From Candidatus Cybelea sp. (GTDB taxonomy: Bacteria > Vulcanimicrobiota > Vulcanimicrobiia > Vulcanimicrobiales > Vulcanimicrobiaceae), in contig DASXFZ010000044.1 of NCBI GenBank assembly GCA_036489315.1, positions 62,001 through 126,000 of the forward strand: a DNA stretch of 64,000 nt, in the 5' to 3' direction. Under the pieces are notes generated by a model. That model searched no databases and had not been told where the DNA came from. It saw nothing but the letters and a program-made list of their open reading frames with translations. Made by a program: the position numbers and the translations under genes. The first letter of the stretch is position 1, and every line of letters begins with the position of its first letter. Of the stretch, positions 20,622 to 44,261 are shown one piece after another.

Positions 20622-21359
20622 ATGGGCTTCACCCGGGGCCTCATTATGGCTGGGGGCAGGTCGCAACGAATGCGCGCCGTCGCGGGCACGCCCCACAAGG
20701 CCCTCGCGCGAATTCGCGGCGTCACGCTTTTGGAGTGGAACGTCCGTTTGCTCATGCGCAACGGTTTCCACGATATCGTCGTCGCCGTGAGCCAGAACGA
20801 GCCCGAAATCTCGGAGTTCGTCGCAACCTCGGTTGCGCCGCAGGCCGCGCTGCGCGGCGCGAGCGTCGAGCTGTTCCTCGAAGAGACGCCGCTGGGGAAT
20901 ATCGGCGCGGCACGCGAGGTCGTCGGTGAGGCCGACAACGTGCTGGTGCTGTACGTCGACAACCTTGCCTCGATCGATCCGCGGCGCCTCGTCGAGTACC
21001 ACGAACTCGAAGGCTTTGCGATGACGATAGCGACGCATCGTGAGGCGTTTCAAATTCCGTTCGGCCGTTTGGCGCTCGACGGCAATCGGATCCGAGAGTA
21101 CGCCGAGAAGCCGGCCCTCACGATGCAGGTCTCCAGCGGCACCTGCGCGCTGTCGAGGCGCGCCTGCGCCGCGATTCCCCCCGGGCGGCTGACCGGAGCC
21201 AGCGACCTTTTTGCCGTGCTGACGGCAAATGGCGAATCGGTTGGCGCGTTTACCCACAACGAGCCTTGGATCGACATCAACGACGTGCCGGCGCTGCTTC
21301 GCGCGCGCGATCTCGTTGAGTCGCGGCAATCCGAGTTTTTTGGCCTGACCCTCCCGTGA
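20622..21359 (+). CDS. Sugar-1-phosphate nucleotidyltransferase
   Basis: The 245-residue GT-A fold enzyme starts GLIMAGGRSQRMRAVAGTPH, the nucleotide-binding GG-x-x-x-R-M loop. It continues with PLGNIGAA and VLYVDNL, the metal-binding Asp region. Its short length and sequence flavour resemble HddC/MurU-type pyrophosphorylases that load a sugar-1-phosphate onto GTP or UTP. It is the first gene of a trio with a GT4 and an epimerase, joined by 4-base overlaps. It likely activates the sugar or cyclitol used by that trio. ATG at 20622 is favoured over TTG at 20616. Confidence 0.82.
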   Translation: MGFTRGLIMAGGRSQRMRAVAGTPHKALARIRGVTLLEWNVRLLMRNGFHDIVVAVSQNEPEISEFVATSVAPQAALRGASVELFLEETPLGNIGAAREVVGEADNVLVLYVDNLASIDPRRLVEYHELEGFAMTIATHREAFQIPFGRLALDGNRIREYAEKPALTMQVSSGTCALSRRACAAIPPGRLTGASDLFAVLTANGESVGAFTHNEPWIDINDVPALLRARDLVESRQSEFFGLTLP

Positions 21360-22561
21360 ACCGGCTGCGCGTTCTCTCGGTAATCAATTCGCTCTACTTT
21401 GGCGGCGCCGAGTGCCGCTTGCTGAGCCTATCGAAAAGCATCGATCGCGAACGTTTCGATCAGCGGGTGCTCACGCTCAAGGTGCCCGACGCGCAGCGAG
21501 AACGCAGCCTCGGCAGCCTGCGCCCCCACTTTGCGGCGGCGGGAATTGCCATCGACGACCTCGGCGAGGAAGCCCCGGAACTCGGCAGCGCGCATGGTAG
21601 CGCCGTAAAGGTGGTGCGCTCCGTTCCCCGCCTGACGCGAACGCTCGCGAAGCTGCGCGGCTACATTCGGGAGAACCGGATCGACGTCGTCGATACGCAC
21701 ACCGGTACTGCAAATCAGATCGGGATCGCCGCCGCGGTTTTGTGCAAGCGCCCGGTCGTCGCCACCACCTACGGTTTGGAAGTCTTTCGCCCGCTCTGGG
21801 TGTGGCGCGGCTCCGAGTCGGCGATGTTCACCGCGGCCTCGGCGATCGTCACCGACTCCGAAGCGGTGGCGGAGCTAGTTCGGCGTAAGCTGCTGCGTCG
21901 CCGGAGCGTCGCCGTCATCCCTAATGGGATCGCGCCGCCGCAGACGCAGCACAGCCGCGAAGAGATGCACGCGCGGTTCGGCATTCCGCTCGACCCAAAG
22001 GTCCGCGTGATCGGACAAGTTGCGTCGCTCACGCCGCGCAAGGGTCACCTGGTCTTGCTCGATGCGGCGCAGCGCTTGAGCAGAGCCGATCCAAACCTTC
22101 ACTTCCTGATCTGCGGCTACGCTCGCGGGTGGTTCGATTACGAGCGGGCCCTGCACGCTCGCACCGCCGAGCTTGGTCTGCGCGGGCGGGTGCATTTCGT
22201 CGAATATCCGGGTCCCGTGGGGGATGTTTATCGAGGCATCGACGTGCAGGTGCACGCCTCGACGCAGGAGTCGCTGCCGCAGGCGATCATCGAGGGCATG
22301 GCGCTTGGGAAACCAGCCGTCGTAACGGCGATCGCCGGCATTCCGACGATGGTCGGCGACGGAGAATCGGGACTCGTCGTTCCTCCGGACGATGCTGCCG
22401 CGCTGGCGAACGCACTCGCACGCCTGCTGCAAGACGCGTCGCTCGCGGCGCGGCTCGGCGAGACGGCTCGGCAGCGCTACCTCGCAAATTATACCGACGT
22501 ACAGATGGCGCGCCGCCTCGAAGCGATCTTCGCAGGCGTCGCTGCGCCGGCGGCTGCATGA
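21356..22561 (+). CDS. GT4-family glycosyltransferase
   Basis: The 401-residue GT-B fold retaining transferase has an N-terminal acceptor domain (VLSVINSLYFGGAECRLLSL). Its C-terminal donor domain carries VASLTPRKGHLVLLDA and the E-x7-E motif in ESLPQAIIEG. It likely moves a nucleotide-activated sugar or cyclitol to an acceptor in the cytoplasm. Its GTG overlaps the stop of the nucleotidyltransferase (GTGA), and its own stop overlaps the epimerase ATG. This indicates translational coupling and a shared pathway. Confidence 0.88.
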   Translation: MNRLRVLSVINSLYFGGAECRLLSLSKSIDRERFDQRVLTLKVPDAQRERSLGSLRPHFAAAGIAIDDLGEEAPELGSAHGSAVKVVRSVPRLTRTLAKLRGYIRENRIDVVDTHTGTANQIGIAAAVLCKRPVVATTYGLEVFRPLWVWRGSESAMFTAASAIVTDSEAVAELVRRKLLRRRSVAVIPNGIAPPQTQHSREEMHARFGIPLDPKVRVIGQVASLTPRKGHLVLLDAAQRLSRADPNLHFLICGYARGWFDYERALHARTAELGLRGRVHFVEYPGPVGDVYRGIDVQVHASTQESLPQAIIEGMALGKPAVVTAIAGIPTMVGDGESGLVVPPDDAAALANALARLLQDASLAARLGETARQRYLANYTDVQMARRLEAIFAGVAAPAAA

Positions 22562-23577
22562 AGCGGGCTTTGGTTACCGGCGCGCAGGGTTTCGCGGGTA
22601 GATATCTCGTCGCCGAGCTGCTCGCTGCGGATCCGCGCCTCGAGATTGCCGGCCTCGGGCGCTCGCCGGTTCGCGGCACGTTTACGCACGAAGTGACGCT
22701 GGGCGGCGAGCGCGTTTCGGCACCGCTCCCCAGCGGACTCGCGGCTGCGGCAAGCGACGTACGCTACCGTTACTACCAGGCGGATATCCGCGACCGTGCG
22801 GCGCTTCGCACGATCTTGCATAAGTTTCAGCCCGACCGGATCTTCCACTTGGCATCGGGCTTGCGCGACGACGCGCCGAGCCACTTGTTCGGTACCAACG
22901 TCGAGGGAGCCATCGACTTTTTGGAGGCCGTCGCGGACGCGGCCCCGCGGGTAGAACGAATCGTCGTCGGCTCGAGCGGATCGGTGTACGGCCGGCCGGC
23001 GGTGCTCCCGTTGGGTGAAGACGCGCCGTGCGAGCCCTGCGATTACTACGCCGTCAGCAAGCTTGCCCAAGAACACGCCGTGCGCATCTTGGCAGCGCAG
23101 CGAGGGCTGCCGGTCGTCGTTGCGCGGATCTTCAACATCGTTGGTGCCGGACAGGACGAACGTCACGTCGCGGGACGGTTTGCCTCGCAGATCGCCGCCA
23201 TCGGTGCCGGTGCCGCGCCCGCCCGGCTCGAGGCCGGCGACCTGTCCACGGCTCGAGACTTTATCGACGTGCGCGACGTCGCACGCGCGCTTGCGATCCT
23301 CGCCCGCGAGCCCCGGGTACGCGGAACGTATAACGTGGCCGGCGGCGTCGCAACGCCGATCGGCGAGATTTTGGGAGCGCTGCTCGACGCAGCGCAGCTG
23401 CGCGCGACGGTAACGGTCGAGCGAACCTATTCGCGAGCCTCGGATATGCCGCGCGCCTTCGCGAGCATCGAGCGGCTGCGCGCCGCCGGCTACGCACCGA
23501 GCGTTTCGTTAGCGCGAAGCCTCACCGACCTTCTCGATTACTATCGGCGAAATCTCGTACCGGCAGAAGCGGTCTAG
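22558..23577 (+). CDS. NAD-dependent epimerase/dehydratase of the extended SDR type
   Basis: The 339-residue enzyme has the nucleotide loop TGAQGFAG at residues 7-14 and the catalytic YYAVSK (Tyr-x3-Lys). It shows ARIFNIVGAGQDERHV, a pattern typical of GDP-mannose 4,6-dehydratase and GDP-4-keto-6-deoxymannose reductase (RMD). It likely modifies a nucleotide-linked sugar made by the first gene of the trio. It ends 18 bases from the stop of the convergent GH4-type gene. Confidence 0.87.
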   Translation: MKRALVTGAQGFAGRYLVAELLAADPRLEIAGLGRSPVRGTFTHEVTLGGERVSAPLPSGLAAAASDVRYRYYQADIRDRAALRTILHKFQPDRIFHLASGLRDDAPSHLFGTNVEGAIDFLEAVADAAPRVERIVVGSSGSVYGRPAVLPLGEDAPCEPCDYYAVSKLAQEHAVRILAAQRGLPVVVARIFNIVGAGQDERHVAGRFASQIAAIGAGAAPARLEAGDLSTARDFIDVRDVARALAILAREPRVRGTYNVAGGVATPIGEILGALLDAAQLRATVTVERTYSRASDMPRAFASIERLRAAGYAPSVSLARSLTDLLDYYRRNLVPAEAV

Positions 23578-23595
23578 ATAACCTTCGGATTCATT

Positions 23596-24816
23596 CTAAA
23601 CCGCGGCGAGCAGGTCGGCGCTCAGCGCGTCGACGTCGACGCCGCGGCCCTCCAGCCACGGGTGCTCCGCAAGAACGTTCGCGCAGTCGCCGATCCGCGC
23701 TGCGAGCACCGCCCGCGCCGCCAGACGCTCGTACCGTACGAAATGCTCGAGCGTCTGCAGGATCCGCGGGGCGAGGTTCGTGCGTCTCTCCAACCGCATT
23801 CGGACTCCGTCTTCGAAAACGAAAGGCTGCTCGAGAACGTCCTCAGCAGCTAAAAACGGCAGATATCCTTCGTTGCGCTGCGAGAGAAAGAACGTCGTCG
23901 AAACCGGCAGGCCCGCGAGCGCACCGACGTACGGAGCGACCGCATCCGAATACCACGGAGTCGGCCGGCGCGCGAGCGCTTCGACGATCTCCTCGCGACC
24001 GGCTGCGGCAAAAGCCTTTAGCGCCTCTTGCTGGATTGACGCCAGTTCGGTCGCGCGCGAAGGCTGGCTGCGCTGCCGGCGCAGCGTAACGTCGGGTTCG
24101 TAGTGCAGGCTGAGATATTTTAAGGGAATCGCGCTCACGGCGCGAATCAGCCGGCTCGTCGGAAAGGAAGCGTCGTCGCACGTCGCCGCGTACTGTGCGA
24201 CGAGACTCGTGCCGTCGACCGATACGTCGTCGAACCATCCGAGGTGATTGACGCCGGCATAGCTGAAGGTGACGCGTGCAACGGGAGCGCGCAGCGACGC
24301 GCAGGCCGCGCACAGGGTAACCCACGGCAGCTCGCAGATGCCCGCGACGTCGAGCGACGGAAAGGCCGAGAGCGCGCATCGCACGAGCAGGCTCAACGGC
24401 GCGGTCATCAGCAGAATCTTCGCGCGAGGGCAGCGCCGGTGGATCTCTTCGAGCGCCCGCGACAGTTGCGGCCACGACCGCCAGGCCGCCGCGAAGCCTC
24501 CCGGTCCGAGCCCTTCGTCGCCGCACAGGCCGTGACGCAGGGGAAAGGACTCATCGCGCGCGCGGGCGTCGTAGCCGCCGTATCGCGCCTGTAGAATCAC
24601 GACGTCGGTACCCTGCAAATCGGCAAAATCCCTCGCGCACCGCGACGTAACCCGTTCGCCGGATAGGATGTCGATGGCGCGCCGTACCGCGCTAAGCCGC
24701 TCTTCCGAGCGCCCGATGAGCGTAACGTCGAGCTCGGGCGCGAGCGAACGCAGTTCGGGCGTCATGAAGAGCGCCGGCGTGCTGGCCGCGCTGCCCCCGA
24801 CGATCGCGATCTTCAA
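23596..24816 (-). CDS. GH4-family-like NAD-dependent glycosidase or dehydrogenase
   Basis: The 406-residue protein has the GH4 Rossmann start KIAIVGGSAASTPALF, the stretches VVILQARYGGYDARARDESF and GLGPGGFAAA, and the metal ligands C161 (AGICELP) and H191 (GVNHLGW). GH4 enzymes cleave glycosides by NAD+/Mn2+ redox elimination, with oxidation at C3. The family's usual TNP substrate loop reads MTAP here and the residue after the metal Cys is E rather than N. Substrate preference may therefore differ, and it could act as a dehydrogenase on a cyclitol. The TTG start overlaps the kinase stop (TTGA), so the two are coupled. Confidence 0.75.
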   Translation of the reverse strand: MKIAIVGGSAASTPALFMTPELRSLAPELDVTLIGRSEERLSAVRRAIDILSGERVTSRCARDFADLQGTDVVILQARYGGYDARARDESFPLRHGLCGDEGLGPGGFAAAWRSWPQLSRALEEIHRRCPRAKILLMTAPLSLLVRCALSAFPSLDVAGICELPWVTLCAACASLRAPVARVTFSYAGVNHLGWFDDVSVDGTSLVAQYAATCDDASFPTSRLIRAVSAIPLKYLSLHYEPDVTLRRQRSQPSRATELASIQQEALKAFAAAGREEIVEALARRPTPWYSDAVAPYVGALAGLPVSTTFFLSQRNEGYLPFLAAEDVLEQPFVFEDGVRMRLERRTNLAPRILQTLEHFVRYERLAARAVLAARIGDCANVLAEHPWLEGRGVDVDALSADLLAAV

Positions 24817-25823
24817 CGAACGGCCTCGCACCGCGCGCGGTAAAAGGCGGCCGCGCCGGCCAAGCAGACATCCTCGATTTCGTCGTAAATGGTAAGGCTG
24901 CCGCTGCGCCAGAGCGGGAACGCTTGCGAGCCCAATAGCTCGACGAGCTGCGCGCCGAGCACGTCGTGATAGACCGGGCCGAGCCGCTGCGCAAAACCTC
25001 CGATCGCGACGATGCGATCGAGGCCGGCCGCGGCTACGAGCGAGGAGAGGACTCGAGCCAAAGGCTGCGCCGCCGTGCGAATTATCGAGAGCGCCCAGGC
25101 GTCGCCCGCAAGCGCCGCGGGGATCAGATGCTCTTCGTTGGTGATCTCGGCGGGTCCGGCGCCGTCGCGCCGAGCGATCCGCGAGCTCGCGAAGGCCGCG
25201 GGTTGTGCGCGCGCCATGCGCCGCGCCAGCCGCTGCGTGCCGCGCCCCGACGAGATCGCGCCGAGATGCCCGCGGCCGCCGCAGTCGCACGCCGGGGCCT
25301 CGGGGGACGTATCGACGACGATATGGCCGATCTCTCCGGCGAAGCCGGTATCGAGGACGCGGTCGGGGTGGCGGCGATCGTAGAGTTTGCCGCCGATTCC
25401 GCTGCTGACCGTCACCACGAAAAAGCGCTCGGCGTCGAGGCGTTGCGAGAGATACCACGCCGCCGCGGAAACGTCGTTGATCAAGTGCACGCGGCGCCCG
25501 GTTCGCGACTGCAGCTCGCCGGCGATGTCGGGAATCGGGCCGGCCCGCGCTCCCAGGATCGTGGGTGCGGCGAGAAGGCGGCAACCCGCGACGACCGGCC
25601 CGGGGACCGAAAAAGCGATGGCGTCGCCGGTATCGTTGTCGCGGCTCGCGTCGCGCACGTAGCCGGCGATCGAATCGAGGATCGATTCCCACAACTCCGC
25701 GCCGTTTGCCGCGGGGTGAAAGTTGCTGATTTTTCGGCGCGCGTAGGAGTGGAGCTCTCCGTCGTCGCTCGCCACCGCCAATCGAAGGTGCGTACCTCCG
25801 GCGTCTACCGCAATGACGGGCAC
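24813..25823 (-). CDS. ROK-family sugar/cyclitol kinase
   Basis: The 336-residue ASKHA kinase has phosphate loop AVDAGGTHLRLAV, catalytic base D117 (LINDVSAAAW), GEIGHI at 164-168 and a zinc motif C179-D-C181-GGRG-H186. In that motif the usual last cysteine is histidine. ROK kinases phosphorylate sugars. In acarbose-type pathways a ROK member (AcbM) phosphorylates 2-epi-5-epi-valiolone at O7. Its position directly after the sugar phosphate cyclase gene, 12 bases downstream, supports a cyclitol kinase role here. That role is inferred from context. Confidence 0.82.
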   Translation of the reverse strand: MPVIAVDAGGTHLRLAVASDDGELHSYARRKISNFHPAANGAELWESILDSIAGYVRDASRDNDTGDAIAFSVPGPVVAGCRLLAAPTILGARAGPIPDIAGELQSRTGRRVHLINDVSAAAWYLSQRLDAERFFVVTVSSGIGGKLYDRRHPDRVLDTGFAGEIGHIVVDTSPEAPACDCGGRGHLGAISSGRGTQRLARRMARAQPAAFASSRIARRDGAGPAEITNEEHLIPAALAGDAWALSIIRTAAQPLARVLSSLVAAAGLDRIVAIGGFAQRLGPVYHDVLGAQLVELLGSQAFPLWRSGSLTIYDEIEDVCLAGAAAFYRARCEAVR

Positions 25824-25835
25824 GGCGCCGGTTTG

Positions 25836-27701
25836 CTAACTGGCCGCCGGCGTGCTTGCAGCCGAAGCTCTGGCCACCGCGGCAAGCGCGGCCCGGCACT
25901 CGTCGGCCTCGACGCGCTGCAAGAAGCCGCATTTTCCGACCGCGACGGGTATCGGAAAGTTTAACTGTCCGCCGCGATGCGCTTTGACCTCGTCGAGCGC
26001 TTCGGTGAGCAGCTTTACCGTGCACGAGTCATCGGTCGCGCGAAGCCCGGCAACGTCGTACAGCGCCGCCATTCGTTCGAGCAGCGATACGGGGCAGAGC
26101 CTGCGGCGCACGGCAATCGCCGTCGAAAGCAGCATGTCGATCGCGACCGCCTCGCCGTGCTGCAGGCGGTAGTTGCTGCGTATCTCGAGCGTCGGGCTGA
26201 AGGAGTGCCCGAAGTCCACCGCACGTTTGAGGTTGTCTTCGTAGAGATTGGGCGCCAATTCTACCATCATAGCCGCCGCAGAGCGGTCGAGCACCTCGCG
26301 CGCGATTGCGCTCGGCGACTGAAATGAGGAACGCAGCAGCTCCTCGAGGTGGTCTTCCAAGAGCTCGAAGAGTTCGGCATCTGCCGCAACGGCGATCTTG
26401 ATGATCTCGGCGACGCCGCAGGCGAGTTCGCGAGGCGGCGCGGTGCGCAAAAATGCCGCGTCGTTGAGGACGCCGAGCGGCGGGTAAAAGGTTCCGAGAA
26501 GGTTTTTGTGTCTGCTGAAATTTACGCCTTGTTTGATCCCGACGGCGACGTCGACCATGCCGAGCAGCGTCGTCGGGATCCGCACGAAAGCGACCCCGCG
26601 GCGATAGAGCGCCGCAGCCGTCCCGGCGATATCGAGAACGACCCCGCCGCCGACGCCGGCGATGACGCCGTCGCGCGGAAGCCCCGCGGCGATCGCCGCC
26701 CGGCAGACGCGCTCGACCTGCCGGAGATCCTTGTTTGACTCGCCCGCCTTGAGCGTGATGATCCCGAAGACGTTGAGATAGCGCGCGGCATAGGCGCGCA
26801 GCTGCGCTCCGTAGAGTGCGTCGATGCGCTCGTCCACGGCCAGCAGCAGAGGGCGTCTCCCGACCAGATCGGCGAAGGCCGTGGTCTGTGCGTCGAAGAC
26901 CGGCGACGTCAATTGCGTAACGGTGTACGCAACCTCGCGCGTTGCGTGCATCGACAACGACGTCGCCGCATCCGAAACGCTCGTTCGCACGTGGTTTTGC
27001 GCGCGGGCCGGCGCGAGCGCGGCAATCGTTCCTCGGCGGACGGCTTCTTCGGTGAGGACGGCGACGGGAAAACAGCCTTCGCGGCCGAGTGCCTCGATGC
27101 ACGCTGCAATGCGGCGCGCGAGTTCGGCGCCGACGTGTTCTGACGCTGCGATGACCGCCGTGCGGTAGCCGAAGTCGCGAGCGATTCGCAGCGGCGCGCT
27201 CAGCAGACTCGCGACGCGTTCGGCCGCGTCTTGAGGCAGGGCGCGTGCCTCGAGCCGTGCGAGGTTTTCCACCTGCAAAAGCTCGCAGAGGCTCGACTCA
27301 TGGGGACGGATGCGTGCGCTGCGAGCCCCGCCGGCACGGGTCACGAGTGAAAGCGTTCCCCTCCCCGCGAAATCGATGAGTACGAAGCGCTCCAGAGTGC
27401 TGGGGGCCGCATCGGCCAGCGCCGCCGGCCGGGACTGCACGTAGAATGGCACGCGAGGCTCCCGCCGGCTCGCTGCAGGCGCCAGAATGCAAGCGCTCTC
27501 GACAACGACGACTTTGGAGACGGTCGGAAACTCCGCAAGGACGGCATCAACGAGCCGGCCCGCGGCGCCGTTGCGCCGGTCGGCCTTTAATCGTAACGGG
27601 GCGTGGCAGATCTCACGCAGCGTCGTTTGGTCGAGGACCGTAACGCGCGAAGTGGCCTTGTCGTAAAGCTCCACGAAGCCGAGATGTGGCGAGGTTCCCA
27701 T
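25836..27701 (-). CDS. 2-epi-5-epi-valiolone synthase-type sugar phosphate cyclase with a 250-residue N-terminal domain
   Basis: Residues 255-600 match the DHQS-superfamily branch that cyclises sedoheptulose 7-phosphate. Supporting stretches are ALYGAQLRAY, VGGGVVLDIAGTAAALYRRG, IPTTLLGMVDVAVGIKQGVN, FSRHKNLLGTF, ELAPNLYEDN and DFGHSFSPTLEIR. Zinc ligands E432, H499 and H515 are present. The G-x-K-x-GVNF and HKN-x-LG elements separate this group from 3-dehydroquinate synthase. Residues 1-250 are an added domain I cannot assign; VLIDFAGRGTLSLV in it faintly recalls an ASKHA phosphate loop. ATG at 27701 is used; an in-frame TTG at 27716 is the alternative. It heads a three-gene minus-strand unit. 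Confidence 0.85.
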   Translation of the reverse strand: MGTSPHLGFVELYDKATSRVTVLDQTTLREICHAPLRLKADRRNGAAGRLVDAVLAEFPTVSKVVVVESACILAPAASRREPRVPFYVQSRPAALADAAPSTLERFVLIDFAGRGTLSLVTRAGGARSARIRPHESSLCELLQVENLARLEARALPQDAAERVASLLSAPLRIARDFGYRTAVIAASEHVGAELARRIAACIEALGREGCFPVAVLTEEAVRRGTIAALAPARAQNHVRTSVSDAATSLSMHATREVAYTVTQLTSPVFDAQTTAFADLVGRRPLLLAVDERIDALYGAQLRAYAARYLNVFGIITLKAGESNKDLRQVERVCRAAIAAGLPRDGVIAGVGGGVVLDIAGTAAALYRRGVAFVRIPTTLLGMVDVAVGIKQGVNFSRHKNLLGTFYPPLGVLNDAAFLRTAPPRELACGVAEIIKIAVAADAELFELLEDHLEELLRSSFQSPSAIAREVLDRSAAAMMVELAPNLYEDNLKRAVDFGHSFSPTLEIRSNYRLQHGEAVAIDMLLSTAIAVRRRLCPVSLLERMAALYDVAGLRATDDSCTVKLLTEALDEVKAHRGGQLNFPIPVAVGKCGFLQRVEADECRAALAAVARASAASTPAAS

Positions 27702-27906
27702 AGCGTTGCGGGCCAACCTTTCATTGGCGAGCGCTTTTTCTCGTTAAGAATACCTCAAAAACGACGAACTTCGCACGGTCGCTCGGACCATCGTTAACAG
27801 CATTCTCTCCCACATACGAGAGCTGCGAGTGGGTCTTTCGACACGCTCGGCGGGACGGTCGTCGCGACAAGCCGGGGCGTTTGGGTCGAATGAGCGCGGC
27901 GCGGCT

Positions 27907-28827
27907 TTGCCCAAAGCTGCAAAGAGAAGGAGCGATAATCCGGTGATAGCAGTCTCGGCGGCCGCGCTGGCGGCCTGCGGCCTTTTCGGCAGGAATAATA
28001 CCTACACGAAGCCGGTGCTCGGCGCGGCGGCCGATCGCAACAGCCGGCGCTACATTGCGTCGATGGTTTCGGCCGGCAACTCGGGCGGCTTCTGGATTGC
28101 GCCCGATCCGGTAGAATTCGTGAACCTCGCCGACGGCCGCACTCCTCTGCTGACCGTTGCCCGCAAGGTTGCGTACCACCAGTTTCCCAGCCCCTATCCG
28201 TGGCAGCAAAACTTCCGGATCGAACCGCTGAGCGACGCGCATTCGATCGTCGTTCAAACCCAGAGTTGCCGCGTTTACGAAGCGTGGAATACGAGCTTCG
28301 CCAACGGCGTGCTCTCGGCGTACAGCGGCGCGAATTGGAGCTTGCGCGAGCCTTTCGCACCTTTGCGGCCGGGCACACCCTCGGCGATGTCCTCGGGCCT
28401 ATCGCTGTACGGCGGAATGGTGCGTTGGGAGGAGGTCGCCGGCGGCGCGGTACGCCACGCGCTCGTGTGGGCGGCCCCGGCCGGAACCGTCGCGCAGTGG
28501 AGCTTCGTTTCGCCCGCGAGCGATGCCGAGGGCATCGCGTTCAAAGGCAGCGACGCCTATCAACTGCCCTACGGGGCGCGGCTGCGGCTGCGATCGTCCT
28601 TCGACGTTTCGCGCTTCGGTCCGCAGAGCGCCGCGATCGCGCGCGCGATGAAAACCTACGGCATCTACTTAGCGGACACGGCGCGCGGCAACGAGCTCTA
28701 CAACGCGTTGGCGCTCGACGGAACAAACCGTTGGGACCGGCGCGATTTGGCATCGCTCGACGCAATTCATATCAGCGACTTCGACGTCGTCGCGCTGCAC
28801 AGAGTACAGCGAGTTCCGGGCCGCTAG
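27907..28827 (+). CDS. Lipoprotein of unknown function, paralog A
   Basis: The 306-residue product is a close relative of the protein at 33617-34609. Shared blocks include YHQFP.PYPW, VVQT.SCRVYE, GTPSAM.SGLSL.GGMVRWE, YQLPYGARLRL and MK.YG.YLADT. The late block (GARLRL..SF..S, AMK.YGIYLAD) recalls a family of secreted proteins without known activity, a recollection I cannot check. TTG at 27907 gives an ideal lipoprotein signal (basic PKAAKRR, then IAVSAAALAAC). GTG at 27943 has AAGGAG upstream but loses the basic region. Its gene ends 1 base before the stop of the convergent HD gene. Confidence 0.75.
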   Translation: MPKAAKRRSDNPVIAVSAAALAACGLFGRNNTYTKPVLGAAADRNSRRYIASMVSAGNSGGFWIAPDPVEFVNLADGRTPLLTVARKVAYHQFPSPYPWQQNFRIEPLSDAHSIVVQTQSCRVYEAWNTSFANGVLSAYSGANWSLREPFAPLRPGTPSAMSSGLSLYGGMVRWEEVAGGAVRHALVWAAPAGTVAQWSFVSPASDAEGIAFKGSDAYQLPYGARLRLRSSFDVSRFGPQSAAIARAMKTYGIYLADTARGNELYNALALDGTNRWDRRDLASLDAIHISDFDVVALHRVQRVPGR

Positions 28828-30587: not shown

Positions 30588-31880
30588 CTATTTCGCCGGG
30601 ATGCGATTGAACTTGCGAGGCTTTTGCGTGAAATCGAAGACGTCGCCGATGCTCGTGGCGCGAGTATCGGTCGTGCCGAGCCGTCCCAGATTCCAGTTGT
30701 CTTCGACGAAGCGGATGATGCTGCCGAATTCGTACTGAGTGTGGGAGACGTAGCTGGATTTCGCGTACGGCGAGACGACGATCATCGGTACGCGCATTCC
30801 GAGGCCGGCGTAGTCCAGCTGCGGCGGCGCCACGTGATCGTACCAGCCACCCCAGTCCTCCCAGACGACGATGACGGCGGTCGAGTTCCAGAACTTGCTC
30901 TTGCCGACGGCGTTGACGATCTTTGCAACCCACGCCGGCCCCTTATCGGACTTGTCGAAACCGGCATGGTCGGAGTTCTGGTCGTTTGGGGATATCCACG
31001 TGACGTTCGCGAGCGAACCGCCGGCGAGGTCGCTGAAAAAGTTCGTCTCCGGCATCGAGACGTCGTTGCCCCAGTCCGGGCCGTGCCGAACCCCGCTGAC
31101 GGCGTCGAAGGCGTTCCAATATGCCCCTGCGAGGCCCCCGTCAAAGAGCGGGGGTGCGTAGTACTTCCAAGAGAGGGACTTCGCATCGAGGAGGTCTGCA
31201 AGCGTGCTGTAAGTCATGCATGGGAACACCCCTTTCTTGATGTACTGCCCCGCGCTGGTGACGACCGGAACCGTTGTGCCGCTCTGTGCGTCGCAGCCCC
31301 ACGGCCCGTGGCTGGGGAAGTCGACCATGCTTTCGTCGGCGTTAATCGCGGAGCTGCCGCGGATGAGGTCTTGGTGGGAGCTGAAGTCTCCGCTGTTCTC
31401 CGTTGGGAACATGTGATCGGCCAGCACGTATTGCCTGGCCATCGCCCAATATGGGCGAACCTGGGCCGGGTCGACGTACTGATACGCACACTTGGGGCAC
31501 GGCTTACGGCTGACCCAGACCTTACTCCAGCCGTCCATCTGCCCGTTGTCGTAATCGACCTTGAAGGCCGCCCGGCTGTTCTGATAGAGCTTTCGAGTGT
31601 AGAGCTTGCTCTTTGTCAGCGCCACGGTTTGGCCGTTGGGCATCAGTCCGTTCGTCGTGCCGTCGGCGCCGGGAAACGTCGCAAAGAGATTATCGAAACT
31701 GCGATTGGTTTGAATCACAATTACGACGTGCGAGATGCTGCCCGACGTGTTCCGATGAGCATTCGAGTGCGCTGCTTGAAGCGATTGCGCCGGCGTTACC
31801 GGTACTGGCGAAGAGTTTGCACCGCTGCAGGCAGTTAAGGCGGCAGCTAAGGCGCAGAAAAGTAAATACCGCGATTTCAT
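30588..31880 (-). CDS. PLC/AcpA-type phosphoesterase lipoprotein, copy 1, with altered metal motif
   Basis: The 430-residue lipoprotein (signal ending AAALTAC) belongs to the phosphoesterase family PF04185 (phospholipase C and AcpA acid phosphatase). Visible elements are [62 protein letters not shown] and [20 protein letters not shown]. The canonical ENRSFD metal site reads TNRSFD, so the metal-binding glutamate is threonine. The neighbour copy at 32085 keeps the glutamate. Activity may be lost or changed. ATG at 31880 is chosen for the signal peptide; the longer frame to 32021 has no signal-like start. Confidence 0.85.
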
Positions 31881-32084
31881 AAGCGTTTCGGTTCGCTGCG
31901 GCGCCTCGCGAATTCCCGTGCGAAATTGCGAAAATGCCCAAAATTGAGGCTTTCGGCTCACATTAAGGGACAAGGGTAGCGCCTTAAAAAACGAAATAGA
32001 CCTATAGGTCGGAAGCCTCAATTTTTGCCTCCAAGCGCTTCGACTGCGGGATAGCCGGGCGACGCGATCAAAGTTTACAGCACT

Positions 32085-33473
32085 TTGAGACGCTATAATT
32101 CTTTCGTAACAACAACTGCCGGCCTCATCGCCTCCGCGGCACTCTGCGCGTGCGGCGCAAATCCAAGCCTCGGCGGCGTTTCGGCCGTGCCTTCAACCGC
32201 AACAGATCAAACGAACGTCAAACGACACACCGGCTCGATCGGCCAAATCCAACACGTCGTCATCATGGTGCAGGAGAACCACAGCTTCGACAATCTCTTC
32301 GCGACGTTCCCCAATGCAGATGGGGCAACGACCGGAAAGATGAGTACGGGGAAGACGATTAAGCTCACGGAGACAAGGCTCTATAGCCCCAAAGCGTTGG
32401 ATAATAGCCATCAGGCGTTTGAAGTCGACTACGACAACGGAAATATGGACGGCTGGAACAAGGTGTGGGCTAACTCGCACCCCTGCCCGAAGTGCGCTTA
32501 CGCCTACGTCAATCCCAAGCAGATCGCCCCGTACTGGACGCTGGCCAGTACCTACGGCCTCGCCGACCACATGTATCCAACCGAAACGAGCGGGAGCTTC
32601 ACGGGGCATCAGGATCTCATCCGCGGCGACAGCGCCGTTACCAGCAGCGAAAGCCTCTTCGATTTCCCGTCTCACGGGCCGTGGGGCTGCGACGCACCGG
32701 CGGGAACGACCGTACCGATGTTGACCGAGCAAAACAAGTATATCCAAGACGGGCCGTTTCCGTGCTCGAACCAGTTTCCGCCGTCCGGCTCCTACAACAC
32801 GCTGCGCGATTTGCTCGATGCTAAATCGGTTTCGTGGAAGTACTACACCCCGCCGCTGAACGGCGGGGGACTTGCCGGCGACTACTGGGACGCGTTCGAC
32901 GTCATCTATCCGGTACGAAACGGGCCGGAGTGGACGGCGAACATTTCTTCTCCGGAGAAGAATATCTTTAAGGACATTAAGGCGAGCCGCTTAGCCTCGG
33001 TTTCGTGGGTCATCCCCGACGGGGCAAACTCGGATCACTCCGGTCTCGCCCCGCGCGACACGGGCCCTTCCTGGATCGCGCAAGTGGTCAACGCGATCGG
33101 CAAGAGCCAGTACTGGAACTCGACCGCGATTATCATCGTGTGGGACGACTGGGGCGGCTGGTACGATCACGTAGCTCCGCCGCAGCTCGACTACGCGGGG
33201 CTCGGATTCCGGGTGCCGATGATCGTCGTTTCCCCATACGCTATACCTAACAACGTTTCGCATACGCAGTACGAGTTCGGCAGCATCGTCAAATTCGTCG
33301 AGCAAGTATGGAGTCTCGGCAGCCTCGGCACGACCGATCAGCGCGCGAACAGCATGACCGATATGTTCAACTTCAGCCAAAGCCCGCTGCCGTTCAAGCA
33401 AATTCCGGCGAAATACTCGAGGTCGTTCTTCGAACACCAGCCTCCCTCGAACGAGCCGCTGGACACGAACTAA
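32085..33473 (+). CDS. PLC/AcpA-type phosphoesterase lipoprotein, copy 2
   Basis: The 462-residue paralog of the divergent gene at 30588 has [20 protein letters not shown], keeping the metal Glu-Asn pair. It also has [42 protein letters not shown] and [15 protein letters not shown]. Family members hydrolyse phospholipid or phosphomonoester bonds outside the cytoplasm. TTG at 32085 gives a lipoprotein signal with a basic start ([13 protein letters not shown], ending ALCAC). No other usable start exists before the lipobox. The gene is followed by the hairpin cluster and lipoprotein paralog B on the same strand. Confidence 0.87.
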
Positions 33474-33484
33474 GGGTCGCTTAG

Positions 33485-33597
33485 CGCTCGGCGGCGCTGG
33501 GTGCCAGGGGCCGCCGAGCGGGACTTTCGTCCCATCCGAAATGGTACTTTCGTACTGGTTGTCGAAGGGTGCCCTTCGTCCGGCCCATCGCGCCGGA
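33485..33597 (+). ncRNA. Cluster of five hairpins, candidate structured leader or intergenic RNA element
   Basis: Between the phosphoesterase stop and lipoprotein B there are five consecutive inverted repeats. (1) An 11-bp perfect stem, 33485-33495 with 33510-33520, containing an inner CTGG/CCAG. (2) GGGAC-TTTC-GTCCC at 33520-33533. (3) GTAC-TTTC-GTAC at 33544-33555. (4) CGAAGG/CCTTCG at 33563-33578. (5) TCCGGC/GCCGGA at 33579-33597. Hairpins 2 and 3 share the ACTTTCGT loop sequence. The cluster ends 4 bases before the GGGGGGAG ribosome site of the next gene. No known riboswitch class is recognised. Stem 1 could also end the upstream transcript. Confidence 0.5.
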
Positions 33598-33616
33598 TGT
33601 TGGGGGGAGATTGGAC

Positions 33617-34609
33617 TTGCGAGGCACCCTTCGTTTTTCATATTGCTCTGCGGTTATGGCGTCGCTTGCCCTTGGGGCCTGTTCGGGGGGCATCACGCCC
33701 GCGGTGACGCCCGCTGGGGCGGCGTCCGCTGCGGCGCTGCGGCCGAACTTATCGACCTTTTACGGCTGCCCGGCGTTCAAAGGTCATCCGTATAACGACG
33801 TCATTACAAACGCCCGAGTCGACAAGCACAGCGCCGATTACATCGACTCGATGATCCAGGCGGGAAACACCGCCGGCTTCTACGCTTCGACCGGCAACGA
33901 GCAAATCAACCTTGCGGATAAGAAGACGCCGTTGCTCACGGTTCAGCCAAAGGTCAAATACCACCAGTTCCCAGTGCCCTACCCGTGGATTTCGAATTTT
34001 TTCATCGAGCCGACGAGCGATCATCACGCGCTGGTCGTACAAACGCACAGCTGCCGCGTGTACGAATCCTACAGCACGACCTACGGATCGGGGGGGCTTA
34101 GTGCCTATTGCGGTGCCAACTGGCAACTCCGCAGCCATTTCAAGCCGATGCCGGCGGGGACGCCATCGGCGATGGCTTCCGGCCTCTCGCTTTTCGGGGG
34201 AATGGTGCGCTGGGAGGATTATCAGTCGGGCGCCATCGCGCACGCCTTGGACTGGACGGCGATCGCGCACACAGTCGCGGAATATCAGTTCGTTGCGCCC
34301 GCCAGCGACACGGATCGGTTGGCCTTTTATGGATCGAGCTCGTATCAGCTGCCCTACGGTGCACGCCTGCGGTTGAAGGCTTCGTTCAACACCTCCGGCT
34401 GGGGACCGCAGGCAACGATGGTGGCCAACGCAATGAAGAGCTACGGGGTCTACCTCGCCGACACGGGTTCCAGCAGCAACGGCCTCTACTTTTCCAACGA
34501 CCAGTACGGCAACAATTCATGGAGCGGCTCGGATCTATCGGTGCTCTCACAGATAAAACTGGGCGATTTCGACGTTATCAAACTCCCCAAGGTGCAGAGC
34601 GTCCACTAA
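33617..34609 (+). CDS. Lipoprotein of unknown function, paralog B
   Basis: The 330-residue product is a paralog of the protein at 27907 and slightly more complete at its N terminus (FYGCPAFKGHPYNDVITNAR). The signal RGTLRFSYCSAVMASLALGA-C fits a lipoprotein. TTG at 33617 is chosen because GGGGGGAG lies 7-8 bases upstream. The open frame reaches 33569, but that extension lies inside the hairpin cluster. Conserved blocks are as in paralog A, including GGMVRWEDYQSGAIAHAL and MKSYGVYLADTG. Pairing with phosphoesterase copy 2 on the same strand suggests a linked role at the cell surface, which is unproven. Confidence 0.78.
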   Translation: MRGTLRFSYCSAVMASLALGACSGGITPAVTPAGAASAAALRPNLSTFYGCPAFKGHPYNDVITNARVDKHSADYIDSMIQAGNTAGFYASTGNEQINLADKKTPLLTVQPKVKYHQFPVPYPWISNFFIEPTSDHHALVVQTHSCRVYESYSTTYGSGGLSAYCGANWQLRSHFKPMPAGTPSAMASGLSLFGGMVRWEDYQSGAIAHALDWTAIAHTVAEYQFVAPASDTDRLAFYGSSSYQLPYGARLRLKASFNTSGWGPQATMVANAMKSYGVYLADTGSSSNGLYFSNDQYGNNSWSGSDLSVLSQIKLGDFDVIKLPKVQSVH

Positions 34610-37023: not shown

Positions 37024-38084
37024 CGAAGGAGCGCCGCTAAGGCGCCCGCATCACCGGCCGGTGAGCACAGTGCCCCCAGAGAAGAGCCCTCTTCGACCGC
37101 CTCCCCTTCGGCGACGATCACGACCGGACAGCCGACCGAAAGCGAATCGTAGAGCTTCGTCGGAATGCTTTCCGTGAGACCTTTGCGCAATGGAATCACG
37201 GAGACGTCGGCCTCCGCAATCATCGCGAGCGCCTCACTGCGAGGGAAGCTGCCCTTGATGCGCAAGTTGCTCACGCCTTCGTTGGCGGCCCGTTCCCGCA
37301 GACGCGTACCCTGAGCGCCGTCCCCGATGATCTCGATCGTGATACCCTCGCCGGCGACCAGCGCCGCCGCGTCGACCAGCACGTCGACGTCTGTCGTCAA
37401 TCCCAGATTTCCCGCGTACACCGCCGTAAAGCCATCACCGCTGCCGGCATGCGGCGGAAGATCGGAGACCAGTGCATCTCGCTCGTAAGCATTGCGCGCC
37501 AAAATGATCCGATCGCGGTCGATGCCGCGTGCGGCGATCTGCGATATGCCTTGTGCGGTAACGACGACCACGAGATCGGCCCGGCGGTAGAGGCGGCGGA
37601 CAAGCCGCTCCATGAGCCGTACGACGAGGCTCTCTTTCTTCCAAACCCCCATCGAGACGCCGATGTCGGGAAAGACGTCGCGGATGTCGACGATGAGCCG
37701 GGCACGATGCCGCGCGGCGCCGGCCAGTGCTGGGAAGGCGAGCGTGATCGGCGGCGAGCTGACGACAATGGCGTCGTAACGCTCGCGCGTCGTCAGCAGG
37801 TAGAGCGAAGCGGAGAACGCCGCGGAGAGCCAATGCAGCAAGCGCGATCCCGGCAGTTTTGGGGCGAGGATCGAGAAGAGCCGTACGATTCGCGCATTTT
37901 CGGCGTGCTCGATGCGGACGATCGGGCGCCGCTGCCCGCCGGTTTCGTGCTGAAACGACGGATAAGGCGTCACGACCGTGACGTCGTGTCCCTTTGCCGC
38001 AAAGGCATCGACCAAAGAGCGCACGCGTAAGGCCGCCGCACCCGCCTCCGGCGGGTAAAAGTGCGTAACGACCGCGACCTTCAC
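36894..38084 (-). CDS. GT4-family glycosyltransferase, last gene of the EPS operon
   Basis: The 396-residue GT-B enzyme is of the WbuB/Fuc-NAc-transferase kind: KVAVVTHFYPPEAGAAALRV, DIRDVFPDIGVSMGVWKKES, AVYAGNLGLTTDVDVLVDAA and SIPTKLYDSLSVGCPVVIVA. It is expected to add one sugar to the lipid-linked repeat unit. The GTG at 38084 overlaps the stop of the C5-epimerase gene by 4 bases. The 3' end overlaps the Wzy-type gene by 130 bases, which is long for convergent genes. Confidence 0.87.
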   Translation of the reverse strand: MKVAVVTHFYPPEAGAAALRVRSLVDAFAAKGHDVTVVTPYPSFQHETGGQRRPIVRIEHAENARIVRLFSILAPKLPGSRLLHWLSAAFSASLYLLTTRERYDAIVVSSPPITLAFPALAGAARHRARLIVDIRDVFPDIGVSMGVWKKESLVVRLMERLVRRLYRRADLVVVVTAQGISQIAARGIDRDRIILARNAYERDALVSDLPPHAGSGDGFTAVYAGNLGLTTDVDVLVDAAALVAGEGITIEIIGDGAQGTRLRERAANEGVSNLRIKGSFPRSEALAMIAEADVSVIPLRKGLTESIPTKLYDSLSVGCPVVIVAEGEAVEEGSSLGALCSPAGDAGALAALLRQLSLLDKSALRKIGDDGKSRLSERPDRSAIMSALVGRIAALC

Positions 38085-39067
38085 GTGTGCGCGCCTCCGA
38101 GGACCGTATCGCGGCCGGAGAGACGTTCGGGGAGACTGCGCAGCGTCGTGCGAACCAGCCGCGATCTGGAGCCGCGTTCCCTGGCGTAATCCGTCCATCG
38201 ATCGGCGACCGCGGCGAAGCGCGGCTCGTCGAACATCTTGGCGAGCACGCGCATTTGGGCGATGTGAAACTGATGGTATTTCAGCGTAGCAAGATGCGGG
38301 CGGCCGGAAGCGCTGCGCAACAGGCTATAGAGGCTCCACCAGCCGGTGTCGAATCGCGGCAGCCACGCGCGCAGCGTTGCGACGCAGCGCTCGATTCGGG
38401 CCTGCATCCAAGGCTCGGGGTTGACCTTCCACAGCTCCCACAGGCCCCACAGCGCGAAGATGCAGCCGTTGAGCACGTGGGGCGCGTGACGGTTGGCGAT
38501 CTCTTCGAAGAAGATATCGTCGGCCGATTCCCACACGACGCCGCCGCGATCGATACCGGCGGTAAACGGCTGCGACGCGCGCATTGCCGCGCCGGCATAG
38601 CCAGCGTTCGGCTCGATCCGGTGGGCGCGCAGCAGCACCGAAATCGCCTCGCCTTGCGCCATCGCCGACGTCCAGCCGGCCGGCGCTCCGTATTTGCTCC
38701 AGGGGAAATCGAAGACGTAGAGGCCCGGAAGTCCCTCGCGGCGCTGGTGGTCGCGCAGCCAATCGGCCTGCGCGAGAAAGTCCGTTCGTGCGGCCGGATC
38801 GCGCGCGGTGCACCAAATGCCGAACCGGTGCAGAGCGAACTGCGCGATGCGGATCGGGTGGTAGTGGCGCTGCGGGCCGCTGAGCAGGACCAGGTCTGCG
38901 TCTTTTGGCGCGCCGTCGAAGTCTTCGCCGTAGACCGAGCTATCGGGGTTCCACTCGACGAAGTACCGTCGCGCGCCGGGTTCGGTAAGTGAGTCGACGC
39001 ACCACGGACGTTGATGGGACCAGCTGCTGACGGGAAATCCCAGCGCGACGCGGCGCAGTAGGCTCAT
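38081..39067 (-). CDS. D-glucuronyl C5-epimerase family protein
   Basis: The 328-residue protein matches the C-terminal catalytic domain of heparan/heparosan glucuronyl C5-epimerases (PF06662): GWTSAMAQGEAISVLLRAHR, VLNGCIFALWGLWELWKVNP, DTGWWSLYSLL and LKYHQFHIAQMRVLAKMF. Family members invert C5 of D-glucuronic to L-iduronic residues, usually within a polymer or oligosaccharide. No signal peptide is seen, so it would act on a cytoplasmic lipid-linked chain. It sits between WecC-type and GT genes with 4-base overlaps, suggesting the exopolysaccharide contains an epimerised uronic acid. Confidence 0.82.
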   Translation of the reverse strand: MSLLRRVALGFPVSSWSHQRPWCVDSLTEPGARRYFVEWNPDSSVYGEDFDGAPKDADLVLLSGPQRHYHPIRIAQFALHRFGIWCTARDPAARTDFLAQADWLRDHQRREGLPGLYVFDFPWSKYGAPAGWTSAMAQGEAISVLLRAHRIEPNAGYAGAAMRASQPFTAGIDRGGVVWESADDIFFEEIANRHAPHVLNGCIFALWGLWELWKVNPEPWMQARIERCVATLRAWLPRFDTGWWSLYSLLRSASGRPHLATLKYHQFHIAQMRVLAKMFDEPRFAAVADRWTDYARERGSRSRLVRTTLRSLPERLSGRDTVLGGAHT

Positions 39068-40341
39068 GCCACCGCGCGTGCAGTGACTCGCCGTAACGGC
39101 CGCCCGAGCTGATAGCAGGCGAAGCCGCACGTTTCCCACTGCGCGGCGTCGAAAAAATTCCGCGTATCGACGAGCCGCGCAGAGCGCATCAGCGCTACCA
39201 TTTCGGCGGGCCGGATGCTGCGGAAGGCGCTGTGAGCGGTCACCAAAACCAATGCGTCGGCGTCGGTCGCCGCCTCGGCGAGCGTCCGGCTTAGCGGCCG
39301 TTCGAACTCCGTAACGAGCGGGTCGTAAATCGCGGTCGTATAGCCGCGCTCGCGCAGCAGTCCGTCGATCCGAATCGTTGGGCTCTCACGGGCATCGTCG
39401 ACGTCGGCCTTGTAGGCGGCACCCAAAAGCGCGACCTTGCGGCCTCGAGCCGGCTCGACGAGCTCGGTGATCCGCCGCACGATGCGGTGCGGCATCCGAT
39501 CGTTGACTCGGCGTGCGGCTTGGACGAGCTCCGTCACGAACGGGTTCGCGTCCGAGAGGAAGTGCGGGTCGACCGGAATGCAGTGCCCTCCGACGCCGGG
39601 GCCCGGCTGTAAGATGTCGACGCGCGGGTGCTTGTTGGCGATCGCGATCGTTTCCCAGACATCGATGTCAAGCTCTTCGGCGACGATCGCCAACTCGTTC
39701 GCAAACGCGATGTTTACGTCGCGGTATGTGTTCTCGACGATCTTTACGAACTCGGCGGTGCGAATCGAGGTTATCGCGATCGGGCTTTCGCAGAAGGACG
39801 AGTAGAGCTCGGCTACCAGCGCCGCGTCCTCCGGAGTGCGGCCTCCGACCACCCGGCCGTTCGTGCGCAGCTCCTCCATGATCGCGCCCGGAATCACGCG
39901 CTCGGGGCAGTGGGCGATGTGAAAATCGTCGATCGACTTTCCGGCGGAGCGCAACGCCTGCTCGAAGACGCGATCCGTCGCGCCGGGAGGAACCGTGGAC
40001 TCGAGAACGAGCATCGACCCCGGTTTCGCGACGGCAGCGACCTCTGCAGCGGCGGCTTCGACGTAGTGGAGGTCCGGCTTTCCGTCATGCGTCGGTGTCG
40101 GCAAGCAGAGAATGTAGGCCTGGGCGCTCGGAATGCGGTCCACCGCGTGAAAACGCCCGCTCGCCAGCGCGTCGACGACGGCGCGGCGCACCGGCTCTTC
40201 AGCCGCGGCGACCTCTCCTCGCTGCAGCGCGTGGCGGAGCTTCGCGTTGACGTCGTACCCGTAGACTCGGTGTCCGCTCTCCGCAAACAGGGCCGCCGTC
40301 GGCAGCCCGATGTAGCCGAGTCCGATGATCGCGATGTTCAA
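39064..40341 (-). CDS. wecC: UDP-N-acetylmannosamine dehydrogenase-type nucleotide sugar dehydrogenase
   Basis: The 425-residue enzyme has the NAD loop IIGLGYIGLPTAA, the UDP-sugar dehydrogenase middle with K200 and N204 (EFVKIVENTYRDVNIAFANE), and catalytic C254 in PGPGVGGHCIPVDPHF. The pattern NTYRDVNIAFANELA with PGPGVGGHC fits the WecC/WbpA group, which oxidises C6 of UDP-HexNAc to the uronic acid. It supplies a UDP-uronic acid for the exopolysaccharide. It is coupled on both sides by ATGA overlaps. Confidence 0.88.
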   Translation of the reverse strand: MNIAIIGLGYIGLPTAALFAESGHRVYGYDVNAKLRHALQRGEVAAAEEPVRRAVVDALASGRFHAVDRIPSAQAYILCLPTPTHDGKPDLHYVEAAAAEVAAVAKPGSMLVLESTVPPGATDRVFEQALRSAGKSIDDFHIAHCPERVIPGAIMEELRTNGRVVGGRTPEDAALVAELYSSFCESPIAITSIRTAEFVKIVENTYRDVNIAFANELAIVAEELDIDVWETIAIANKHPRVDILQPGPGVGGHCIPVDPHFLSDANPFVTELVQAARRVNDRMPHRIVRRITELVEPARGRKVALLGAAYKADVDDARESPTIRIDGLLRERGYTTAIYDPLVTEFERPLSRTLAEAATDADALVLVTAHSAFRSIRPAEMVALMRSARLVDTRNFFDAAQWETCGFACYQLGRPLRRVTARAVA

Positions 40342-41549
40342 GATGCGCGTTCCTTTCCGTGAAGGGCTGCGGCGAGGTCGCGCATTTGCGCGCGCACGTC
40401 GTGCCGCTTGGCGACGAGTTCGTAGGCGCGCTCGGCGCGCGATCGCGCGGCCTTAGGATTACCGTATACGTCAAAAAGGGCAGCGGCCAGCGCGCTGGAG
40501 TCGTCCGCGGCCACCAACAGCCCGCTGCGCCCGTCAATCGCCTCGCGCACGCTCCCGGAGTTCGTGGCGACGATCGGGATCCCGAACGCCATCGCCTCGA
40601 GCAACGCGGAGGGTACGCCCTCCATCATCTTTTCTCCGGCGTCCCGGCTGGCCAGAACGATCGCGTCGAAGGTGCCCGCGCGATAGAGATCGTGCAGCCG
40701 CCCTTGAGGAATGTGCCCGCCGAATTCGACCTGATCCTGCAGCGCCCGTGACGCGACCTCGCGCTCGAGTTCGGCCTGCAGCGGCCCGGCACCGTAGAGC
40801 GTACACCGCACGGGAACGCCGGAGTCTTTCAGCTGCGAGAGGGCGGCGAAGAGAACGGAGTGTCCCTTCACCGGGACGAGCGCTGCCGGGCAAACGATGC
40901 GAAAGCTGGCAGCTTGCGGCCGGCGATTGACCGCGTAGGGCGGTATTTGGATCCCGAGCCGAAGATGGGCGATTCGTCCGTCGAGCCGCGGCATGCGCGC
41001 GCGCAGATCTCGAGCGCCGCGCGCGGAGATCGCGCGTACGTACTCGACGCTGCGCTCTTTGACGTCGAACGCATTGCGCTCGTAAATGTCCCAGCGGTGC
41101 GCCGTCGCGCTCCACGGCAGCCGGCTGGTCGATGCCGCGACCATGGCCACCGTCGAAGGCGTCGACATCCAATAGGCATGAATGTGATCCACGCGATGCT
41201 CGGCGGCCCAGTGCCCGAGCGCGAGGCCTTTTACGAAGACCGCGAGGTTTTTCAGGCGCCCCGGATCGTGAGAGCCGACGATCTTTGCGAACGTCCGCGC
41301 GGCCCGCAGAGGAGCGACGGCCGCCGTTGCGGCGGCGCGCCTGAGAATTTCGGCGTTGAACAGCGGCCATTCGAGAACGGTTACGTTGTCTGGAACGGAG
41401 TATCGCGCCTCGGAGGCCGGCGGCCGGGCCGGCACAACGACGACGTCGTCGAAGTGCCGCGCGAGCTCGGCGAGCTCCACGTTGAGGTACGCTTCTTGGC
41501 TGCCGAAGGGAAAACGCGCCGTGACGAGGATGAGGCGTCCGGCGCTCAT
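40338..41549 (-). CDS. GT4-family glycosyltransferase
   Basis: The 403-residue GT-B enzyme has LILVTARFPFGSQEAYLNVE, the donor-domain stretches PAALVPVKGHSVLFAALSQL and VEFGGHIPQGRLHDLYRAGT, and an E-x7-E motif in EGVPSALLEAM. It is related to amylovoran/colanic-type transferases (AmsK, WcaL). It is predicted to extend the lipid-linked repeat unit. It overlaps both neighbours by 4 bases. Confidence 0.87.
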   Translation of the reverse strand: MSAGRLILVTARFPFGSQEAYLNVELAELARHFDDVVVVPARPPASEARYSVPDNVTVLEWPLFNAEILRRAAATAAVAPLRAARTFAKIVGSHDPGRLKNLAVFVKGLALGHWAAEHRVDHIHAYWMSTPSTVAMVAASTSRLPWSATAHRWDIYERNAFDVKERSVEYVRAISARGARDLRARMPRLDGRIAHLRLGIQIPPYAVNRRPQAASFRIVCPAALVPVKGHSVLFAALSQLKDSGVPVRCTLYGAGPLQAELEREVASRALQDQVEFGGHIPQGRLHDLYRAGTFDAIVLASRDAGEKMMEGVPSALLEAMAFGIPIVATNSGSVREAIDGRSGLLVAADDSSALAAALFDVYGNPKAARSRAERAYELVAKRHDVRAQMRDLAAALHGKERAS

Positions 41550-44223: not shown

Positions 44224-44261
44224 CGTCCTTACGGTCGAGGTGCTGCTCGGCGTACGATGGC

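Follow-up and report, generated by a model that had tools for sequence, protein, structure and literature searches.

A candidate C7-cyclitol biosynthetic locus in Candidatus Cybelea sp. (Vulcanimicrobiota)

Layout of the six-gene block

The window analysed here is a stretch of 64,000 nucleotides from Candidatus Cybelea sp. (contig DASXFZ010000044.1), a member of a phylum with very few cultured representatives, and its positions 20622-27716 hold a block of six genes that a preliminary description had put forward as a candidate undescribed C7-cyclitol (pseudosugar) locus. Two tightly coupled trios converge tail to tail with a gap of 18 bases between them: a nucleotidyltransferase, a family 4 glycosyltransferase (GT4) and an extended short-chain dehydrogenase/reductase (SDR) termed SDR7 on one side, and a sugar phosphate cyclase, a ROK kinase and an enzyme of the glycoside hydrolase family 4 (GH4) type on the other (Table 1). 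This layout, as first described, is confirmed by the coordinates, the overlaps and codon-usage gene calling, which backs all six genes, and the Pfam and NCBIfam matches agree with the family assignments. In what follows we argue that the block may encode a pathway to a C7-cyclitol (carbasugar) glycoside, beginning with the cyclase and its companion enzymes.

Table 1. Features of the block, in window coordinates
Feature	Position	Strand	Length	Remarks
Nucleotidyltransferase	20622-21359	+	245 aa	NTP_transf_3/NTP_transferase; MobA/HddC/mannose-1-P guanylyltransferase-like
GT4 glycosyltransferase	21356-22561	+	401 aa	GTGA 4-base overlap with nucleotidyltransferase gene
SDR7, extended SDR, Rmd-like nucleotide-sugar 4-keto reductase	22558-23577	+	339 aa	ATGA 4-base overlap with GT4 gene
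GH4-type NAD/metal-dependent enzyme	23596-24816	-	406 aa	TTG start; 4-base overlap with ROK stop
ROK-family sugar/cyclitol kinase	24813-25823	-	336 aa	12-base gap to cyclase
Sugar phosphate cyclase, whole polypeptide	25836-27716	-	626 aa	
Cyclase domain	25836-26966	-		Best PDB match 4p53 (ValA), 5e-72; Asp/Pro/His fingerprint; tree
Extra N-terminal domain of cyclase polypeptide	26967-27716	-	~245 aa	Start TTG 27716 or ATG 27701

The cyclase and its companion enzymes

By its residues the cyclase is a sedoheptulose 7-phosphate (S7P) cyclase of the 2-epi-5-epi-valiolone synthase (EEVS) type, belonging to a lineage of its own and not a demonstrated member of the ValA clade. Its PDB ranking places DDGS (5tpr, 5e-58) behind ValA, followed by 3-dehydroquinate synthase (DHQS) enzymes at 5e-40 or worse. 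In an alignment of 67 cyclases, all of the metal ligands (Glu/His/His) are present, and the protein has Asp at the site of ValA Asp281, His at that of His360 and Pro where DHQS has His, which is the valiolone-synthase motif set read in the preliminary description. DDGS has Ala (268) and Thr (347) in place of the equivalents of Asp281 and His360, and the DHQS rows show Asn and His where the window protein has Asp and Pro. The residue numbers for ValA and DDGS fit the PDB chains at a constant offset. Two sites discriminate EEVS from DDGS (PMC4426668).

In a tree from which EVS, DOIS, aminoDHQS and EboD references were absent, the S7P cyclases, the window protein included, are split from DHQS at 99/88. 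Because ValA and DDGS share one 20-row clade that excludes the window protein, the EEVS-type label rests on residues and not on clade membership; the window cyclase falls instead in a clade of eight, whose other members are six cyclases from Vulcanimicrobiota and one from Terriglobia. Its closest relative, from 'Candidatus Eremiobacterota bacterium' (L003), is 68% identical. DHQS identity was rejected on the fingerprint, the tree and a separate, ordinary DHQS elsewhere in the host genome. The NCBIfam aroB model scores 234 bits where its cut-off is 305, and in the LNxGHTFxH motif Asp and Pro stand in for Asn and His. Another Eremiobacterota cyclase (L072, genome G115, 1755-2903) groups with DDGS and carries Tyr at the position where S7P cyclases have Pro.

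The N-terminal domain of the cyclase polypeptide matches no Pfam family, even with the E-value threshold relaxed to 5. It was found solely as a cyclase fusion, in four copies from three Vulcanimicrobiota genomes (the window, L067, L068 and L069); no copy in the phylum sample stands alone, and the closest cyclase relative lacks it. An AF2 model (pLDDT 51) has weak RNase-H/ASKHA-like topology and weak PPX/ROK-type fold similarity, and Foldseek returned no match to it below 1e-3. Given this weak model and the ROK-cyclase fusions found elsewhere, a degenerate ROK kinase was considered and rejected, as profile comparison with the ROK kinases of the block gave nothing and the model is too poor.

The ROK kinase (PF00480, 7e-26) carries the zinc motif CDCGGRGHLG, and ROK genes adjoin most of the EEVS-type cyclases sampled. 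Kinase and cyclase are fused in a single open frame in a Streptosporangiaceae metagenome-assembled genome (L029:9152-11305) and in Dictyobacter vulcani (L024:8729-11761), which ties the two steps together. The third member of this trio is placed in GH4 by its sequence features. With the GH4 6-phospho-beta-glucosidases 1s6y (its best PDB match, 7e-21) and 1up4 it shares both Pfam domains (PF02056, 5e-14; PF11975, 6e-12), the metal Cys and His and the catalytic base Tyr, the last assigned by alignment to 1up4, where it meets the NPY tyrosine of BglT, the base of the Thermotoga enzyme; unlike them it is distant in sequence, forms its own clade and, in its class, always lies beside an EEVS-type cyclase. 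The family uses NAD+ and Mn2+ in acting on 6-phospho-sugars, through NAD-dependent oxidation, proton abstraction and elimination. Because this chemistry works on 6-phospho-sugars, a 7-phospho-cyclitol would be a natural alternative substrate.

In the facing trio, the nucleotidyltransferase is a small, MobA/HddC-like protein (PF12804, 3e-12; PF00483, 4e-12; PDB 7whr, 2e-8); its best NCBIfam model, NF052502 man1P_GTase, matches at 4e-15, far under the model's cut-off, and the glucose-1-phosphate adenylyltransferase model gives merely 6e-4. The glycosyltransferase (PF00534/PF13439) is nearest in the PDB to 3c48/3c4q, GT4 enzymes of the MshA type (1e-19), with PimA at 8e-11. MshA-type GT4 enzymes glycosylate inositol phosphate, that is, a cyclitol phosphate as acceptor. 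SDR7 (PF01370, 6e-44) has a YxxxK motif and its best PDB match is the GDP-6-deoxy-D-lyxo-4-hexulose reductase 2pk3 (8e-34), so that the nearest relatives of the "NAD epimerase" of the preliminary description are GDP-6-deoxy-4-ketohexose reductases. Most other clusters hold a second SDR (LegB/MoeE5/GalE-like) that the window block lacks. Supply of GDP-rhamnose by a GMD and RMD pair was rejected: the second SDR is LegB/MoeE5-like and not GMD, and it is absent here, so the claim is kept to a nucleotide-sugar role in general.

Distribution of the block

Cyclase, ROK kinase, GH4 enzyme, nucleotidyltransferase, GT4 and Rmd-like SDR occur together in four phyla: Vulcanimicrobiota, Acidobacteriota, Pseudomonadota and Myxococcota. 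Besides the window, the full set was found in Vulcanimicrobiota at L003, L068, L069, L070, L071 and L067+L124, and in other taxa at L004 (Terriglobia), L023 (Chromatiaceae), L031 and L105 (Methylobacterium) and L110 (Myxococcota); the neighbourhood of a further Methylobacterium cluster (L106) is cut by its end. L067 and L124 make up a second cyclitol cluster of genome G026, which seems to be divided between two contigs, each breaking off within the GH4 gene. Sampling of the phylum to which the Terriglobia genome belongs also yielded L019, where cyclase, ROK and GH4 genes are accompanied only by weak nucleotidyltransferase and GT4 matches and SDR7 is missing. Gene order and strand vary between lineages, and the tail-to-tail GH4/SDR layout of the window recurs in L003 and L067+L124. 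L004, L067/L068 and L110 also contain genes for a DegT aminotransferase and for Gfo/Idh, so the cluster probably has aminocyclitol variants. Three clusters (L019, L068 and L069) have an SIS (GmhA-like) gene nearby; a heptose route was set aside, this gene being absent from the window block.

Co-occurrence was assessed in 117 genomes related to the host at the rank of class or more closely. The window cyclase clade is present in six of these, and GH4 in the same six and in no other of the class. Orthologues of the nucleotidyltransferase (at least 178 bits, the next match being 81) and of SDR7 (at least 268 bits, the next 141) are likewise confined to those six genomes. Under random placement such agreement of one gene set has p ~3e-10, a value that gauges linkage and not independent gains, the genes being linked. 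Divergence tracks that of the cyclase most closely for ROK (rank correlation 0.82) and GH4 (0.76), with 0.41 to 0.54 for nucleotidyltransferase, GT4 and SDR7; that of the second SDR does not follow it.

Elsewhere, a comparable cyclase was found in 2/347 genomes of the phylum of the Terriglobia genome, 3/111 of the genus Methylobacterium, 1/195 of the order of the Chromatiaceae genome and 14/195 Myxococcota, several of the Myxococcota matches lacking the rest of the block. Three Myxococcota loci (L107, L108 and L109) pair a cyclase with a GH4-like gene and have no ROK, nucleotidyltransferase, GT4 or SDR matches. This patchy distribution suggests that the block has spread by horizontal transfer. 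Taken together, the cyclase branches outside the 3-dehydroquinate synthases and the two trios are conserved jointly, in related and distant genomes and far beyond chance; on both points the proposal of an undescribed C7-cyclitol locus is supported at the level of sequence.

Proposed pathway, alternatives and known systems

On balance we favour, with some reserve, a pathway to a C7-cyclitol glycoside, in which the reactions, their order and the product are our reading of the computed gene content, cyclase identity and fingerprint, and module conservation. The cyclase would convert S7P to 2-epi-5-epi-valiolone, and the ROK kinase would phosphorylate this cyclitol, with O-7 as the likeliest position, to produce a look-alike of glucose 6-phosphate. 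On this 7-phospho-cyclitol the GH4 protein may carry out its oxidation and deprotonation chemistry without hydrolysing a glycoside, either eliminating water toward a valienone-type ring or epimerising C2. The nucleotidyltransferase and then the Rmd-like reductase would prepare a nucleotide sugar, most simply a deoxysugar; this would also need a dehydratase- or epimerase-like SDR, encoded in the block elsewhere and here presumably drawn from another locus. GT4 would finally join sugar to cyclitol. A glycoside is favoured by the kinship of the GT4 to the type that uses a cyclitol-phosphate acceptor, by the resemblance of the nucleotidyltransferase/SDR set to GDP-deoxysugar enzymes, and by the lack in the block of a second kinase or mutase that would yield a cyclitol 1-phosphate.

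Several findings weigh against this proposal. The GT4 and nucleotidyltransferase similarities are at family level only, and the window cyclase clade diverges ahead of the group to which ValA and DDGS both belong. The block has neither phosphatase nor exporter, and the host genome holds no close orthologue of the second SDR, only distant paralogues, so the local pathway may be shortened. The broader claim, which we put at slightly under even, is that the block represents an undescribed class of carbasugar pathway that horizontal transfer has carried into four or more phyla, that its GH4 glycosidase has been recruited for biosynthesis as a redox/elimination enzyme or epimerase with a 7-phospho-cyclitol as substrate, and that it yields a new pseudosugar, glycosylated or else nucleotide-activated.

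The alternative that fares best, though we think it unlikely, follows the logic of acarbose and validamycin: the nucleotidyltransferase would activate the cyclitol itself, the SDRs would tailor the resulting NDP-cyclitol, and GT4 would use it as a pseudosugar donor. The enzyme classes match the series AcbC, AcbM, AcbR and glycosyltransferase, in which AcbR makes GDP-valienol (PMC9200736), and the nucleotidyltransferase and SDR7 orthologues of the class occur only with the cyclase. A cyclitol 1-phosphate would be needed, however, and the block has no 1-kinase (AcbU) or 7-phosphatase (AcbJ); moreover, the nucleotidyltransferase is not of the GlgC-like AcbR/ValB type, and the glycosyltransferase is not an OtsA-like pseudoglycosyltransferase, although another type of cyclitol cluster (L008 and L014) has an OtsA-like gene.

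Less probable still is that the modified cyclitol or glycoside enters an exopolysaccharide or glycolipid of the envelope instead of becoming a small secreted metabolite. A polysaccharide locus lies 10 kb off in the window (38081-52538), and related polysaccharide genes adjoin the block in L003, L004, L019 and L069. The L003 link may be mere synteny within one genus, however; at the Methylobacterium tarhaniae, G122 and G108 clusters none of the few flanking genes tested was recognised as a polysaccharide gene, and polymerase and flippase are absent inside the block. We give equally little weight to a cyclase that yields some other S7P-derived cyclitol (EVS- or DDGS-like, or new), so that the pathway would start from another ring: the position of its clade outside the group with both ValA and DDGS is consistent with this, but Asp281 and His360 are the EEVS residues where DDGS has Ala and Thr (principle in PMC4426668), and the tree held no EVS references. 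That the block is ordinary sugar metabolism around a second DHQS or DHQS-like enzyme, as the Pfam and NCBIfam labels (DHQ synthase, aroB) imply, is highly improbable given the substrate-site replacements, tree separation, sub-cut-off score and true DHQS described above.

The polysaccharide locus encodes a glucuronyl C5-epimerase domain protein, UDP-glucose dehydrogenase, glycosyltransferases, Bac_transf, Wzz/kinase, DegT, Gfo/Idh, a hexapeptide transferase and an amine oxidase, and part of it adjoins the block in L003. Its DegT and Gfo genes (47.5-49.6 kb) were not counted as aminocyclitol genes. One protein family flanks the block in two genomes (27829-28827 and 33569-34609 in the window; 8805 and 17339 in L003), and its member at 27829 has no Pfam match. 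Between the two window copies lie side-by-side divergent paralogues resembling phosphoesterase, acid phosphatase and phospholipase C (30588-32021 and 32085-33473).

Acarbose and validamycin belong to the C7-cyclitols, so this compact, conserved family of clusters, as yet unexplored, offers a direct lead to new compounds resembling glycosidase inhibitors. If the glycoside proposal is correct, carbasugar chemistry would extend to Vulcanimicrobiota (Eremiobacterota) and Acidobacteriota, and the proposed non-hydrolytic GH4 role could be put to the test in Methylobacterium tarhaniae DSM 25844, a carrier available in culture. No paper tying Eremiobacterota or Methylobacterium to valiolone or cyclitol biosynthesis was found in the literature collection searched. 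The preliminary description placed such pathways mainly in actinomycetes; C7-cyclitol genes are also known from leaf-nodule Burkholderia (PMC8599487) and as vertebrate EEVS (PMC4426668).

By sequence, the block resembles the front end of the acarbose and validamycin pathways (AcbC, AcbM, AcbR; ValA, ValC, ValB), with which it shares an EEVS-type cyclase, a putative ROK C7-cyclitol kinase, a nucleotidyltransferase and a glycosyltransferase. In the acarbose route 7-phosphorylation by AcbM follows cyclisation, and C2 epimerisation and dehydration at this stage involve AcbO and AcbL (PMC9200736). The block does not belong to that type of cluster, because it has no GlgC-like nucleotidyltransferase and no OtsA-like coupling enzyme; it also lacks a 1-kinase, counterparts of AcbO, AcbL and AcbN, and an aminotransferase, and has GH4 and Rmd-like enzymes in addition, as the preliminary description had noted. 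The AcbR/ValB and glycosyltransferase comparison made there survives as shared logic, not as subfamily, the nucleotidyltransferase being MobA/HddC-like and the GT4 nearest MshA. The window cyclase aligns with ValA across the whole cyclase domain, with identical metal and fingerprint residues, but falls in a separate clade and has the N-terminal extension.

The cyclitol clusters of leaf-nodule Burkholderia (Ca. Paraburkholderia kirkii, L012; also L011, L015, L017 and L018), a symbiosis that makes kirkamide and streptol (PMC8599487, PMC10131216), differ in adding a DegT aminotransferase, a Gfo/Idh/MocA oxidoreductase, a HAD phosphatase and a cupin, of which DegT, Gfo/Idh and HAD phosphatase are absent from the window block, and in having no nucleotidyltransferase-GT4-SDR set; their cyclase is in another clade and their GH4 merely 27% identical to that of the window. 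They nonetheless share the cyclase-ROK-GH4 core, with identical GH4 metal ligands and Tyr, and the block offers a genomic point of entry to the GH4 gene of these clusters.

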